The position numbers were made by a program, and so were the translations under genes. A DNA stretch of 64,000 nucleotides, from contig NZ_CP019332.1 in the NCBI RefSeq assembly GCF_002163855.1, positions 1,653,145 to 1,717,144 of the forward strand, read 5' to 3'. Shown here piece by piece: positions 6,508-10,814 of the stretch. The notes under the pieces are model-generated. The model ran no database searches. It worked only from the letters and a program-made list of their open reading frames with translations, and was not told the origin of the DNA. The first letter of the stretch is position 1. Each line of letters starts with the position of its first letter. This stretch comes from Winogradskyella sp. PC-19. Lineage in GTDB: Bacteria; Bacteroidota; Bacteroidia; Flavobacteriales; Flavobacteriaceae.

Positions 6508-7266
6508 TTATATTACTTTAAACTGTGTTACAAATTCATCTTTTATATTCTTAAAACTATTGGTGCAATATATATGATTAATAGCCCCTTTTAACTCCTC
6601 AAATCCATAATTAAATTGACCATGTGTAACATATAGAAATATTTTTGATGCACCTCGACATTTTAAAGCTTCTGCTAAAAATTTAAATGTTCGACCGCCA
6701 TCAGCTAAATCGTCCACAATTAAGCATTCTTTATCTTTTACATCACCTTGAATACTTATTACTGGTGCCCCATCCACTCTAACTTTATTAGAGGGAACTA
6801 AATCTGCATTTAGCTTTTTAGCAATTTCATGAGTTGTCTTATAGGCACCAGCATCAGGGCTTACTAAAACTGGACTACCTATCTGATTAAATGCTTTTTT
6901 TACAAAATCTAAATGGGATATTTTTTCAGAGTTATCAATTAAAGCTAATGAGATTGAGCTATGTGGATGTAAAACAAAAATCTTGTCAAATCTCATATCA
7001 TTAATAAATTTACAAATCACTTTTAAATCAAAAGATTCTCCTTTATTAAATCGTCTATCAGAACGTTGACCAATTAAGCATAGTATAGTTAATGTAGCAA
7101 CTGTATTTTTATTGGTTGAATTTTCAGCATCCCAAGCTTCCTTTATCGAAGCTGCTTTAAATAAATCTTCATAGCTGTTTCCTCTTATTTTGATATCTAA
7201 ATCACCACTTTCTATAATTTTAGCAGTTACTTGTCCATCATTAAATCTATTTATTTCGTATTTCAT
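6508..7266 (-). CDS. Ribose-phosphate pyrophosphokinase-like protein (short Prs homologue)
   Basis: Homologue of PRPP synthetase, 252 residues against about 310-315 for housekeeping Prs. Conserved landmarks: IRGNSYEDLF (27-36), a modified ATP-flap region IGQRSDRRFNKGESFD (65-80), VSPDAGAYK (135-143) and the PRPP loop CLIVDDLADGGRTF (181-194). It is 11 bp behind nadV in the same direction, so almost certainly the second gene of the operon. The obvious role is to supply PRPP for nicotinamide phosphoribosylation. Short Prs homologues paired with NadV homologues in phages act instead as ADP-ribose pyrophosphate synthetase (Adps of NARP1), so the true substrate, ribose-5-phosphate or ADP-ribose, is open. 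Confidence 0.82.
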   Translation of the reverse strand: MKYEINRFNDGQVTAKIIESGDLDIKIRGNSYEDLFKAASIKEAWDAENSTNKNTVATLTILCLIGQRSDRRFNKGESFDLKVICKFINDMRFDKIFVLHPHSSISLALIDNSEKISHLDFVKKAFNQIGSPVLVSPDAGAYKTTHEIAKKLNADLVPSNKVRVDGAPVISIQGDVKDKECLIVDDLADGGRTFKFLAEALKCRGASKIFLYVTHGQFNYGFEELKGAINHIYCTNSFKNIKDEFVTQFKVI

Positions 7267-7277
7267 GACTACTATTT

Positions 7278-8732
7278 TTAAATACTTGCGTTAACTCTAT
7301 CTCTTATTTCTTGTAAAGTAACTTGATTAACAAATTTTCCATCTTCATAAATCACAAGTAATTCTCCAGTATTTTCTTGTTCTGGAGTTACTTGGTCAAC
7401 TAAAACATATTCATTATTTACCTTATCTACCTTTACTAATCCTTTTGCAGATTTTTTAATACCATCATCAGTAATTGGATCTTTAAAAATTTCTCTTCGT
7501 TCTCCGTTAACAACAACAGAAGTTGCTTTCATGGCAAATCCAAAAGTATCTCTAGTATTAAACTGGTATGTGAAAGATCCTATTCCTAAAACAACGTTTG
7601 TACTAGCAAAACCTTTATCACTCAAACGTTGACAAATATTTTCTGCTCTTTCAGTTGTAATACTGTCTCCGTAGATAGCTCCAATATGCGTATCAAGAAC
7701 TTTAAAACCTTGATTATTTACAGTTCCTCCAAAAATATCCCAAAGCAACTCAATAACACCTTTATCTTTAGGAAGCTTCCCACCTGGTTTTCTTGTCTCC
7801 CCACAAATAATATCAACTGGGTCTCCACTATCAGGTCTTATAACTAATTTTCCATCTCTAGATAATACTTCTTCTTTTAATTCTGGTAAATATTTAGTCA
7901 ATACCTTCCATAAATCCCAAGTATCGCTTACTACAGATAGTATTCCCGTTGGATAAGTATTCATTAAATGCCTAAATGTACCTATTTCGTCATCTTTAGT
8001 TCCTGCACACATTACTGAGTGTTCCGTTGCGTTAACAGAACCTACCACAAAACCTTCTGCATTATAATATTTACGTAAACTACTAATCACTGGTAGTGTA
8101 TCAGAACCTAAAAAAACAGCTCCATGTCCCATTCCAGAAGAAACCGCACTTTGTAAACCTCCCATTCCACGCATTGAAAAATCATGCCCTTGAAAATCAA
8201 TAAATGCTAAGTTTTCTTTATCTGTTTTTAAAATCCAATTCTTAAATATTCTTTTATAACATAATGCTATTGATGCAGATGTCATAGGTTGCCATAACAT
8301 GGTAGACAAAATAGTTTCTAAGAAATTAGTAATCCAATAGAATTTTTTATCTGTATTGACCACAGTTACCATTGGCACTCTTACTGGTATTTCTAATCCT
8401 TCTGGCAATGATTTAACTTTTATTGGCAAGTATTGTAAATCATGTAATTCTTCGTAGTGACTTACATCATATTCAGCACCTAAATACATGGATAACTCTT
8501 CTTTCAACTCATTACAAACTTGTGCCTTTGGTTTAGCGAAAAAATTATCTTGAAAATAATCATGTAACCATTGAAATACATATTGTTGTCCAAATGAAAC
8601 CACCTTATCACAACCTTTTGGAGCATATTTGTTACTTCTTGGTGTCCAATTAGAATATACTTCTTCTGTTCCTTTTGGATATTGTTGATGGTGTCCAGTT
8701 TTATATCCATCAGTTAATAGTAATCCGTTCAT
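7278..8732 (-). CDS. nadV: Nicotinamide phosphoribosyltransferase family protein (NadV/Nampt)
   Basis: Makes NMN from nicotinamide and PRPP, the first step of non-deamidating NAD salvage; the related phage Namat enzymes use ADP-ribose pyrophosphate instead. 484 residues, as in human NAMPT. Active-site counterparts are readable: TDGYKTGHHQQYP (Y10, like human Y18), HDFSMRG (F185, like F193), D211, H238 in ATEHSVM, and R299/D301 in VIRPDSGDP. The upstream region holds two NrtR-type palindromes over a canonical promoter. Followed 11 bp later by the Prs-like gene. The nicotinamide-transferase family call is firm; the phosphoribosyl donor is not proven. Confidence 0.92.
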   Translation of the reverse strand: MNGLLLTDGYKTGHHQQYPKGTEEVYSNWTPRSNKYAPKGCDKVVSFGQQYVFQWLHDYFQDNFFAKPKAQVCNELKEELSMYLGAEYDVSHYEELHDLQYLPIKVKSLPEGLEIPVRVPMVTVVNTDKKFYWITNFLETILSTMLWQPMTSASIALCYKRIFKNWILKTDKENLAFIDFQGHDFSMRGMGGLQSAVSSGMGHGAVFLGSDTLPVISSLRKYYNAEGFVVGSVNATEHSVMCAGTKDDEIGTFRHLMNTYPTGILSVVSDTWDLWKVLTKYLPELKEEVLSRDGKLVIRPDSGDPVDIICGETRKPGGKLPKDKGVIELLWDIFGGTVNNQGFKVLDTHIGAIYGDSITTERAENICQRLSDKGFASTNVVLGIGSFTYQFNTRDTFGFAMKATSVVVNGERREIFKDPITDDGIKKSAKGLVKVDKVNNEYVLVDQVTPEQENTGELLVIYEDGKFVNQVTLQEIRDRVNASI

Positions 8733-8741
8733 AATATTTTA

Positions 8742-8764
8742 ATTTGCGTAAATATTACACAAAT
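8742..8764. promoter_or_regulatory. Candidate NrtR operator 1
   Basis: A 23-bp interrupted palindrome, ATTTGCGT-N7-ACACAAAT, starting 9 bp upstream of the nadV ATG. Its right arm overlaps the minus-strand -7 element TATATTTG (8767-8760), so a bound repressor would block initiation. Arms match operator 2 at 15 of 16 positions. Confidence 0.7.
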
Positions 8765-8791
8765 ATATATTAACAACATCTGTTCTACAAA
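8760..8791 (-). promoter_or_regulatory. nadV promoter
   Basis: On the minus strand, TTTG at 8791-8788, a 20-bp spacer, then TATATTTG at 8767-8760, matching the Bacteroidota -33/-7 layout. The ATG at 8732 leaves a leader of roughly 20 nt. A further perfect palindrome, ACAAAT-TT-ATTTGT (8787-8800), covers the -33 box. Confidence 0.65.
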
Positions 8792-8794
8792 TTT

Positions 8795-8817
8795 ATTTGT
8801 GTTTTTTTTACACAAAT
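8795..8817. promoter_or_regulatory. Candidate NrtR operator 2
   Basis: A 23-bp palindrome, ATTTGTGT-N7-ACACAAAT with a spacer of seven T; perfect 8-bp arms. It lies just upstream of the nadV -33 box and starts 53 bp from operator 1, close to five helical turns, so both sites face the same side of the DNA. Confidence 0.7.
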
Positions 8818-8820
8818 TGA

Positions 8821-9495
8821 TTAAATATCGAAAATTATACCTTCCTTTTTTAGCTTAAAGTATCTTTTATTGTTGAATCTAAATAGGTTAGCAGGTCTTC
8901 CTGAGCCTTTAGATGCTTTTTCATCGAGTTCATCAAGAATGTTAAGGCTCAACATTTTTTTTCTAAAATTACGTCTATCAATTGCTCTATCTAAAAGTGT
9001 AGTATATAATTTTTCTAAATCAGAGAAAGGAAATTTGGTGTCTAGTAATTCAAAACCAATAGGCTCATATGTAATTTTCCCTCTTAATCGAGCTATTGCT
9101 AACTTGAGTATTTCGTCATGATCAAATGAAAGTAGCGGCAGTTCATTAATTTTAAACCACCTTACCTCTTCTGCATCTGTTGAGGCTAATATTTTAAACG
9201 CACTCGGTTTAATCAAACCAAAATAGGCTACAGAAACAACTCTACTCCTTGGATCCCTATTAGGGTTACCAAAAGTGTACAATTGTTCTAAATAATTTAT
9301 CTCAATTCCTGTTTCTTCTTTAAGTTCTCGTTCTACAGCCTCTTCTAATGATTCATCCTTCAAAACAAATCCTCCGGGAATAGCCCATTTACCTTTAAAA
9401 GGCTCGTATTTCCTTTTGATTAGCAAAACTGAAACTCCTTCAGATTCATAACCAAATACTACAGCATCAACTGTTAATTTTATTGATTTTTCCAT
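8821..9495 (-). CDS. nrtR: NrtR-type Nudix-domain transcriptional regulator of NAD metabolism
   Basis: 224 residues: an N-terminal Nudix domain followed by a winged-helix C-terminal half (about 150-224), the layout of NrtR repressors, which sense ADP-ribose or related NAD metabolites. The Nudix box is intact, G42-x5-E48-x7-REL-K-EE-T-G-I, unlike many NrtR proteins that have lost catalytic residues, so residual hydrolase activity is possible. The C-terminal region contains RAIDRRNFRKKML and GSGRPANLFRFN, typical of NrtR DNA-binding domains. It is the gene directly upstream of nadV (88-bp gap holding two palindromes), which supports control of the nadV-prs operon. A plain Nudix hydrolase is the alternative, but the C-terminal domain argues against it. 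Confidence 0.88.
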   Translation of the reverse strand: MEKSIKLTVDAVVFGYESEGVSVLLIKRKYEPFKGKWAIPGGFVLKDESLEEAVERELKEETGIEINYLEQLYTFGNPNRDPRSRVVSVAYFGLIKPSAFKILASTDAEEVRWFKINELPLLSFDHDEILKLAIARLRGKITYEPIGFELLDTKFPFSDLEKLYTTLLDRAIDRRNFRKKMLSLNILDELDEKASKGSGRPANLFRFNNKRYFKLKKEGIIFDI

Positions 9496-10151: not shown

Positions 10152-10814
10152 CTATTCTTGTTTTTTTACTGTAATATTTCCGCCATTGGTACTTAATCTC
10201 CAAACATTAAACCCAAACATATCACTAGGAAAGTCAACCAGTCCATGATGCGAATCAGTCTGTATTACAGCGTTACTAGTTTTCACAAAAATATTACCAT
10301 CAATAGTTTTAATATTGGCAAACCTTGCTGTTCCATCAATATTACATCCGCCTTGAATTAGATTAAAACTAAGTTCTTGAAATTTCCCTTTGGCTTCGAC
10401 CGAACCGATATCGCTTTTAACGGAAAGATCTAAATTTTCAGGCATAGTAATCTCTAAAGTTGCAGCTATAACTTTATGAGCATTTCTTTTATCATCTGGA
10501 GTATCTACGATAGAAACACGTTTTAATTTTACAAAAACTTGATTCCCTTTAACTTCTGATACTACTTGGTAATCGTTACCATACTCTCCATCTGATAAAG
10601 ATTTTAAAGTAATTGCATCAGTTTGTGCTGTAGCCACTGAAATGGTAAAAATTTCGTCTCCATCTACGATTACTTCAGAAACCCCTTTTGAAGAAAATTT
10701 ATCTTCTCCTCTATTTTGTCCATCCACATAAAGTGAAGTCAAGAAAATAAGGCTTAATAAAAAAGTCTTGAAATTAGTATTCCAAGACTTTGATGTATAT
10801 GTATTATTTAGCAT
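10152..10814 (-). CDS. Exported beta-rich protein of unknown function
   Basis: 220 residues with an N-terminal signal-like segment (FLLSLIFLTSLYVDGQ, about residues 18-33). The rest is predicted beta-rich, with alternating short strands such as LDLSVKSDIGSVEAKGKFQEL and IKTIDGNIFVKTSNA, resembling DUF4097/GIN-type putative adhesin repeats in which each strand contributes one face of a beta-helix. No catalytic motif is seen. It lies 8 bp after the DksA-like gene and 14 bp before lspA, so it is probably in the ileS-lspA transcript. Function unknown; the adhesin-like fold is only a similarity in pattern. Confidence 0.7.
   Translation of the reverse strand: MLNNTYTSKSWNTNFKTFLLSLIFLTSLYVDGQNRGEDKFSSKGVSEVIVDGDEIFTISVATAQTDAITLKSLSDGEYGNDYQVVSEVKGNQVFVKLKRVSIVDTPDDKRNAHKVIAATLEITMPENLDLSVKSDIGSVEAKGKFQELSFNLIQGGCNIDGTARFANIKTIDGNIFVKTSNAVIQTDSHHGLVDFPSDMFGFNVWRLSTNGGNITVKKQE

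Follow-up and report, generated by a model that had tools for sequence, protein, structure and literature searches.

The locus

On the minus strand of the window (the whole 64-kb stretch of DNA that was analysed) the genes follow each other in the order lspA (10203-9523), nrtR (9495-8821) and, after a gap of 88 bp, a nadV-like gene (8732-7278) and a short prs-like gene (7266-6508). Upstream of lspA, at 10152-10814, lies a 220-aa open frame without a Pfam match at 1e-5. The features discussed below are the following.

8821..9495, minus strand: nrtR, with a Nudix domain and an NrtR winged helix; Nudix box intact, recognition helix DRRNFRKK.
8795..8817, minus strand: predicted upstream NrtR operator, a perfect 8-7-8 palindrome with an A-tract centre, spanning about -40 to -62, immediately upstream of the -33 box.
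8788..8791, minus strand: -33 element TTTG, placed from the sequence; of 57 aligned promoters, 50 have a TTG at most 11 nt from the upstream operator.
8760..8767, minus strand: -7 element TATATTTG, placed from the sequence and the consensus in the available part of PMC6847099; the ATTTG within it doubles as the downstream operator's first arm.
8755, minus strand: predicted transcription start, inferred by counting from the G in the -7 box, set to -5 (rule of PMC6847099, same part).
8742..8764, minus strand: predicted downstream NrtR operator, overlapping the promoter; ATTTGTGTAATATTTACGCAAAT on the minus strand, covering about -9 to +14 relative to the predicted start.
7278..8732, minus strand: probable gene for a Namat-type nicotinamide transferase, earlier read as nadV; GSFTYQFNTRD at residue 385, loop SNKY after TPR.
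6508..7266, minus strand: prs-like gene (252 aa), probable Adps (ADP-ribose to ADPR-PP).

Between nrtR and the next gene two 23-bp palindromes are found, ATTTGCGT-N7-ACACAAAT at 8742-8764 and ATTTGTGT-N7-ACACAAAT at 8795-8817, which start 53 bp apart and are identical in 15 of 16 arm bases. An earlier note on this DNA had already pointed to this near-identical pair, which was confirmed on re-reading the sequence and goes beyond chance. Single 8-7-8 palindromes are common in the window (6 perfect, 46 with seven of eight pairs), and among 20,000 Markov versions of the 88-bp gap 669 contained two palindromes of at least 7/8 pairs, but none of these 20,000 versions held a pair with arms at least 15/16 alike. 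The pattern ATTTGYGTN7ACRCAAAT is present twice in the window, compared to zero times in 200 Markov windows. With a looser pattern (at most three mismatches) the two palindromes are the sole matches in the 64 kb, a count which is by itself uninformative because shuffled sequences yield 4.05 such matches on average.

The minus-strand promoter, TTTG (8791-8788) - N20 - TATATTTG (8767-8760), is of the Bacteroidota type (consensus taken from the available parts of PMC6847099 and PMC7366714), and transcription should, by prediction, start near 8755, within the downstream operator. While the complete promoter that had been described thus stands, it is not simply bracketed by the two palindromes: the upstream operator lies behind the -33 box, whereas the downstream operator extends over the final 5 bases of the -7 box and over the predicted start. 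A third palindrome (8787-8800) that had been noted over the -33 box does exist, but the window contains 28 perfect 6-2-6 palindromes and the stretch shows no conservation in aligned relatives, so that it was dropped as an element; it probably reflects one operator arm overlapping the -33 box by chance.

Conservation and spacing of the operators

A scan of the contigs of NrtR-bearing genomes gave 64 loci. In the 29 Flavobacteriaceae loci (L001-L027, L035 and L054) the downstream operator was always present (29/29) and the pair in 28 of 29, allowing at most two mismatches to the core. L028 and L030-L032 have one or two operator sites each, and in the remaining 31 loci the 300 bp that follow the nrtR frame contained no match to the 23-mer with at most 4 mismatches. 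Upon alignment of 57 pairs, the arms TTTG.GT and AC.CAAA are almost invariant, with one clearly free position (T/C, its mirror A/G), and between the operators conservation is found mainly at the promoter boxes.

Palindromes in this position could also act as RNA, i.e. as hairpins forming an nrtR terminator or a leader element, and both indeed fold (-5.5 and -6.9 kcal/mol, z -3.6 and -5.9), as does the stretch containing the two (-19.4 kcal/mol, z -3.4). However, no covariation links the two variable mirrored positions (Fisher p 1.0 and 0.18), and in 24 of 114 sites C stands opposite A, which in RNA is a mismatch. The downstream palindrome, moreover, contains the predicted start, and in 8 of 57 promoters the first ATG reaches into it. 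Hairpins and terminators, to which we give next to no credence, were dropped given these uncoupled positions and a search for a terminator-like site that found none.

The operator spacing is 51-54 bp in 54 of the 57 distinct pairs tabulated, in a table that admits spacings of 50-56 bp only, pairs at 27 (two), 39 and 63 bp falling outside it. Judged from sequence, two dimers could bind cooperatively and in phase, 51-54 bp being about five helical turns. The spacing correlates moderately with the -33/-7 spacer (0.42) and with the operator-to-TTG offset (0.48), although misplacing a weak -33 box could mimic such a trade-off, and it could be set by repressor contact or by promoter geometry, the latter of which could suffice alone. 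In the sister group, the sites of L028 (5699-5749) and L032 (5692-5742) are 27 bp apart, about two and a half turns, and the upstream site is degenerate; they precede NadM, with a canonical NadV further on, i.e. a different NAD pathway with the same regulator clade. This 27-bp spacing and the promoter geometry weigh against taking the constant spacing as proof of cooperativity.

Since the TA of the -7 box is at a constant place before the downstream operator in 54-55 of the 57 promoters, that operator, which would lie over the start, fits repression. The same constancy speaks against activation by NrtR from the upstream site, which we regard as very improbable: with its centre near -51 this site would be positioned like activator sites, and NdnR of Corynebacterium binds better with NAD+ according to PMC6800001, but MsNrtR is described in the same source as a repressor.

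The NrtR protein and its predicted DNA recognition

The protein encoded beside the operators matches PF00293 with 83.3 bits (cut-off 21.1) and the NrtR_WHD domain PF21906 with 83.1 bits (cut-off 27), and box alignment gives an intact Nudix box, both in agreement with the NrtR-type protein that had been proposed. Of 75 orthologs 69 have an intact box, the other six carrying N in place of its last G, whereas it is broken in all 16 paralogs. The nearest solved two-domain relatives are BtAraR (5bs6, E 5e-50) and the Nudix protein 3gz5/3gz6 (E 4e-33), the latter of which we take to be Shewanella NrtR. As the NCBIfam NtrR equivalog NF050029 is matched with only 154.1 of the 400 bits of its cut-off, our claim is membership of the NrtR family and not of that equivalog. 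The protein also passes Pfam AraR_C (64.3 bits, cut-off 23.8), and because of this match and the low NF050029 score ADP-ribose is taken as the effector from gene context. The studied member of the AraR_C branch senses arabinose (PMC4666351); here the traits of that branch (arabinose gene targets, a broken Nudix box) are absent, the targets being mostly NAD/ADPR genes and the Nudix box being intact.

In the crystal of BtAraR the operator core is GTGT-N7-ACAC (as given in PMC4666351), of which both the letters and the spacing are identical in the window operators. The DNA-contacting residues D178, R180, N181, R183, K184 and R205 are kept in the window NrtR, while K179 is replaced by R and K204 by G. 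Arg180 intercalates at the TpG step of GTGT according to the same source, and the two-way arm base (Y of GYGT) preserves a YpG step, either TpG or CpG. The site of the mycobacterial MsNrtR reads GTTTTCGA-N7-TCGAAAAC and is thus built as 8-N7-8 like those of the window (PMC6800001, available part). With regard to catalysis, the Nudix box of NrtR regulators of NAD metabolism is called impaired in PMC4666351, whereas PMC6800001 describes an NrtR prototype with both functions, hydrolase included, and a loss of activity in MsNrtR. Because the box is intact in nearly the whole clade, the NrtR proteins considered here may still hydrolyse ADP-ribose.

Co-occurrence of motif and regulator

In the family of Cellulophaga baltica (199 genomes) an NrtR ortholog is found in 17 genomes, and TTTGYGT-N7-ACRCAAA occurs in all 17 of these versus 6 of the 182 others (Fisher p 6e-20); the reversed pattern, used as a control, occurs in 1/17 and 23/182, respectively. 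For the class (345 genomes) the motif is present in 23 of 27 NrtR-bearing genomes versus 30 of 318 others (p 2e-17; reversed control 2/27 and 42/318), with the restriction for both samples that they contain related genomes, through which the p-values exaggerate independence, and that they overlap in some genomes (G002 and G137 among those with NrtR). The identity thresholds for orthologs were chosen after viewing the gaps, which lie between 55% over full length and at most 45% in the family (shorter Nudix-domain matches reach 54%) and between 53 and 48% in the class; the threshold of the protein alignment was 52%. In ten whole genomes the stricter ATTTGYGTN7ACRCAAAW was found at 12 places in nine genomes, every one of them in the nrtR locus. 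Three of the four NrtR-bearing class genomes without an exact site have degenerate pairs 52-54 bp apart. One genome (G209, locus L140) has no site within 2 mismatches despite its NrtR, and another (G412), counted as positive, has its sole exact site at a gene without an evident NAD link.

It might be argued that the sites belong to a different regulator with a similar motif, such as Rex or an AraR/XylR-like paralog. The Rex motif is TTGTG-N8-CACAA, which the arms superficially resemble, and the paralogs share part of the recognition helix. However, the N-terminal domain of Rex exceeded its cut-off in none of the 17 NrtR-bearing genomes (one weak match below cut-off, in G067), compared to 7 of 14 known genomes used as a control, for which reason Rex was dropped. 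Family genomes free of an NrtR ortholog have the motif in 3 of 59 cases with a weaker relative of the protein and in 3 of 123 without, which argues against such regulators in general, and a different owner of the sites is to us hardly credible. None of these six sites lies at an evident NAD gene, as read from the translations.

Probable products of the operon

Family models name the first protein a nicotinate/nicotinamide phosphoribosyltransferase and the second a ribose-phosphate diphosphokinase. Among solved structures, 9w5x and 9w5w (533 bits) and 9ke8 (469 bits) match the first protein best, the other Nampt-type entries listed scoring at most 223 bits, and 9w5x is named in PMC12774641, a work on the Namat of phage SPbetaL1. 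According to that source, Namat is marked by GSX-phi-X-phi-X-phi-TRD with aromatic residues 3 and 7, and by a selectivity loop in which the third residue is Arg, or Lys/Tyr combined with a stacking fourth residue. The window protein carries the signature (GSFTYQFNTRD) and, as judged from its sequence, the loop (SNKY after TPR, third residue Lys), and is 52% identical to the tested SPbetaL1 Namat versus ~30-35% to the canonical NadV of relatives. These findings speak against the earlier reading of the first gene as nadV, and the gene under operator control is probably Namat.

Within the family, Namat is present in 16 of the 17 genomes with NrtR and in 0 of the 182 without (p 1e-22), with GS(F/Y)TYQ(F/Y)NTRD in all 16, and no other NadV-like protein was found in the 199 genomes at E 1e-30. 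G166 has NrtR and operator sites and no Namat. In L013 (5777-7229) and G061:C99:7221-8657 the Namat sequence falls into two or three separate frames and may be broken or misassembled, intact copies being common.

The prs-like protein just misses the Prs cut-off of TIGR01251 in the window (99 of 113) and passes it in 3 of 6 relatives, while each of the six genomes examined also has another, strong Prs (342-355 bits). In a tree it is split from housekeeping Prs with 100/99 support and falls with SPbetaL1 Adps and a Vibrio phage protein with only 87/78 and on long branches; its identity to SPbetaL1 Adps is 34% over 170 aa. The gene is a probable Adps, an assignment less firm than that of Namat. 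Together, Namat and Adps make up NARP1, which forms NAD+ from ADP-ribose and nicotinamide (PMC12774641). The same source reports that a bacterial NARP1, of Paenibacillus, makes NAD+ in vitro, calls its role open, and places Adps upstream in most bacteria; in the window the order is Namat, then Adps.

The operators could alternatively govern an ordinary nicotinamide salvage, in which a true NadV uses PRPP supplied by the prs-like gene and the Nudix protein may feed in ribose 5-phosphate from ADP-ribose. This would agree with the names given by the family models, with the passing of the Prs cut-off in half of the six relatives, with the L028-type loci, where NrtR sites precede NadM and canonical NadV, and with the fact that SPbetaL1 Namat also yields NMN from PRPP in vitro (PMC12774641). 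Against it stand the signature and loop residues, the much higher identity to Namat than to canonical NadV, the separate Prs in every genome examined and the position of the prs-like protein outside the housekeeping Prs clade, and all in all we consider it unlikely.

The regulon in relatives

The regulon was read from the genomes of relatives and not from the window's own genome. In G043, G087, G089 and G132 nrtR is not adjacent (it is on another contig, or 460 kb off in G087), and a site still precedes Namat or Adps. Taking both samples together, 18 operator clusters in NrtR-bearing genomes are located more than 2 kb from nrtR, of which 12 precede genes for enzymes of NAD or ADP-ribose metabolism (Namat, Adps, NadM, PncB, ADP-ribosylglycohydrolase and a nucleoside deoxyribosyltransferase-like protein). 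One other precedes a recurring SPFH gene, one lies in an NAD/ADPR island, and four have no evident link (two being inside reading frames). It had been expected that the motif in related genomes would co-occur with nrtR and stand upstream of NAD genes only; the co-occurrence and the position before NAD genes were borne out, the exclusiveness was not, considering these four of 18. Some NrtR-bearing genomes outside the family have NadM or canonical NadV as targets instead. Taken together, the co-occurrence with nrtR, the sites at NAD/ADP-ribose genes, the operator layout and the recognition helix strongly support the identification of the palindromes as NrtR operators, which at the level of sequence is how the earlier note had read them.

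For 77 chosen clusters the next gene is Namat (26), Adps-like (19), deoxyribosyltransferase-like (10), NadM (6), nrtR (5), SPFH (3), PncB (2), ADP-ribosylglycohydrolase (1), canonical NadV (1) or unassigned (4), in which the loci were hand-picked (many beside nrtR), the far sites L195, L197, L200, L202 and L205, some near sites and the six sites of NrtR-free family genomes are omitted, and neighbours without a Pfam call are named by likeness.

Proposed mechanism

Following these results, it seems quite probable that NrtR represses the Namat-Adps operon from both operators and that ADP-ribose induces it, upon which the operon recycles ADP-ribose to NAD+. Just behind the -33 box the DNA is commonly gripped by the alpha subunit of RNA polymerase, and it is this stretch that an NrtR dimer on the upstream operator would cover, while a second dimer, on the downstream operator, would mask the -7 box and the start site, so that jointly the two bound dimers would shut the promoter. 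Upon NAD+ breakdown the level of ADP-ribose would rise, and its binding to the Nudix domain would release the repressor; the Namat and Adps produced by the derepressed operon would convert ADP-ribose and nicotinamide back to NAD+, and with the inducer thereby consumed the repressor would return. Binding, repression, the role of ADP-ribose as inducer, the enzyme activities and a possible hydrolysis of ADP-ribose by the Nudix domain are what we infer here. Because the operon reads as Namat plus Adps (NARP1), a sensor of ADP-ribose appears to control the recycling of ADP-ribose to NAD+.

Relation to known systems

NrtR regulators of NAD metabolism are reportedly the subject of Rodionov 2008 and Huang 2009, and a 2008 study is said to have predicted NrtR control of nadV-type genes. 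The present system shares with such regulators (MsNrtR, PMC6800001, available part) the combination of Nudix domain and winged helix, the 8-N7-8 operator, the NAD targets and, in some genomes, self-control, and differs from them by its paired operators at a Bacteroidota promoter and by having NARP1 as its target; moreover, the Nudix box of MsNrtR is altered and inactive, whereas it is intact in nearly the whole window clade. BtAraR of Bacteroides, the NrtR-family arabinose regulator, is similar in its core GTGT-N7-ACAC, its helix D(K/R)RNFRK and its tandem sites, but has a sugar effector, sugar genes as targets, a broken Nudix box and 21-bp tandem sites separated by 3 or 42 bp (PMC4666351, available part).

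With the NARP1 of phages and Paenibacillus foliorum (PMC12774641, available part) the locus has in common the Namat signature and clamp residues, the adjoining Adps-like gene and the chromosomal copy. Unlike published NARP1 there are NrtR operators at the promoter, the order in the window is Namat then Adps, and some relatives have NADAR, macro, ADP-ribosylglycohydrolase or KptA neighbours. The predicted ARG-centred systems with Nudix-HTH or WYL regulators resemble it in a Nudix-type regulator thought to sense ADP-ribose and in genes for ADP-ribosylglycohydrolase, macro and NADAR proteins, but occur in actinobacteria, planctomycetes and proteobacteria, among others, and combine the glycohydrolase with phosphatases, Namat and Adps not being mentioned in the available part of PMC9503650. 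The operators are a fresh case of a known type, while the pairing of NrtR with a chromosomal NARP1 was not encountered in the literature searched, in which no paper names both.

Should NrtR indeed respond to ADP-ribose and govern Namat and Adps, the two genes would serve times of NAD+ breakdown, and the paired operators would in this way suggest a purpose for the poorly understood NARP1 genes of bacteria. Tentatively, and with more doubt than conviction, one might go further and regard the NARP1 of Bacteroidota not as a pair of captured phage genes but as a stress circuit of the bacteria themselves, in which a sensor of ADP-ribose (perhaps also destroying it) turns on the rebuilding of NAD+ as a brake that aids recovery from the cell's own NAD+-depleting immune or ADP-ribosylating enzymes, in some genomes together with enzymes for removing ADP-ribose from proteins and nucleic acids. 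In practical terms, the conserved regulator provides a direct handle and its specific operator helps to find the regulon in other Bacteroidota, while genes beside nrtR that are annotated as nadV or prs in the family of Cellulophaga baltica may be misnamed.

Further genes near the operators

A single operator precedes nrtR in five genomes (L081, L087, L093, L096 and L211), ~700 bp from the main pair, which suggests self-control of nrtR there; coordinates hint at the same in G229, G477 and G499, and the window has no operator before nrtR itself.

An SPFH/Band 7 protein is encoded directly behind operators in G166, G205 and G319 (L194 6182-7192 and 5256-6176, L186 3312-4319, L209 854-1864; called by Pfam for L194 and by BLAST for L186 and L209). 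In L194 the gene after SPFH is without a Pfam match, and a similar gene follows in L209.

The island L187 (233-7327) has operators both before Namat and before Adps and contains a macro domain, a PurA-like gene and a small RyR-domain protein (below cut-off), as well as, by likeness, ADP-ribosylglycohydrolase and KptA frames. A phage RyR protein beside NARP1 is described in PMC13232231 (available part) as converting cyclic ADP-ribose to ADP-ribose. Finally, in L001, L002, L005, L012 and L015-L019 a nucleoside 2-deoxyribosyltransferase-like gene is situated between the operators and Namat, a call made with PF15891 for the copies in L092 and L204 and by BLAST for the others.
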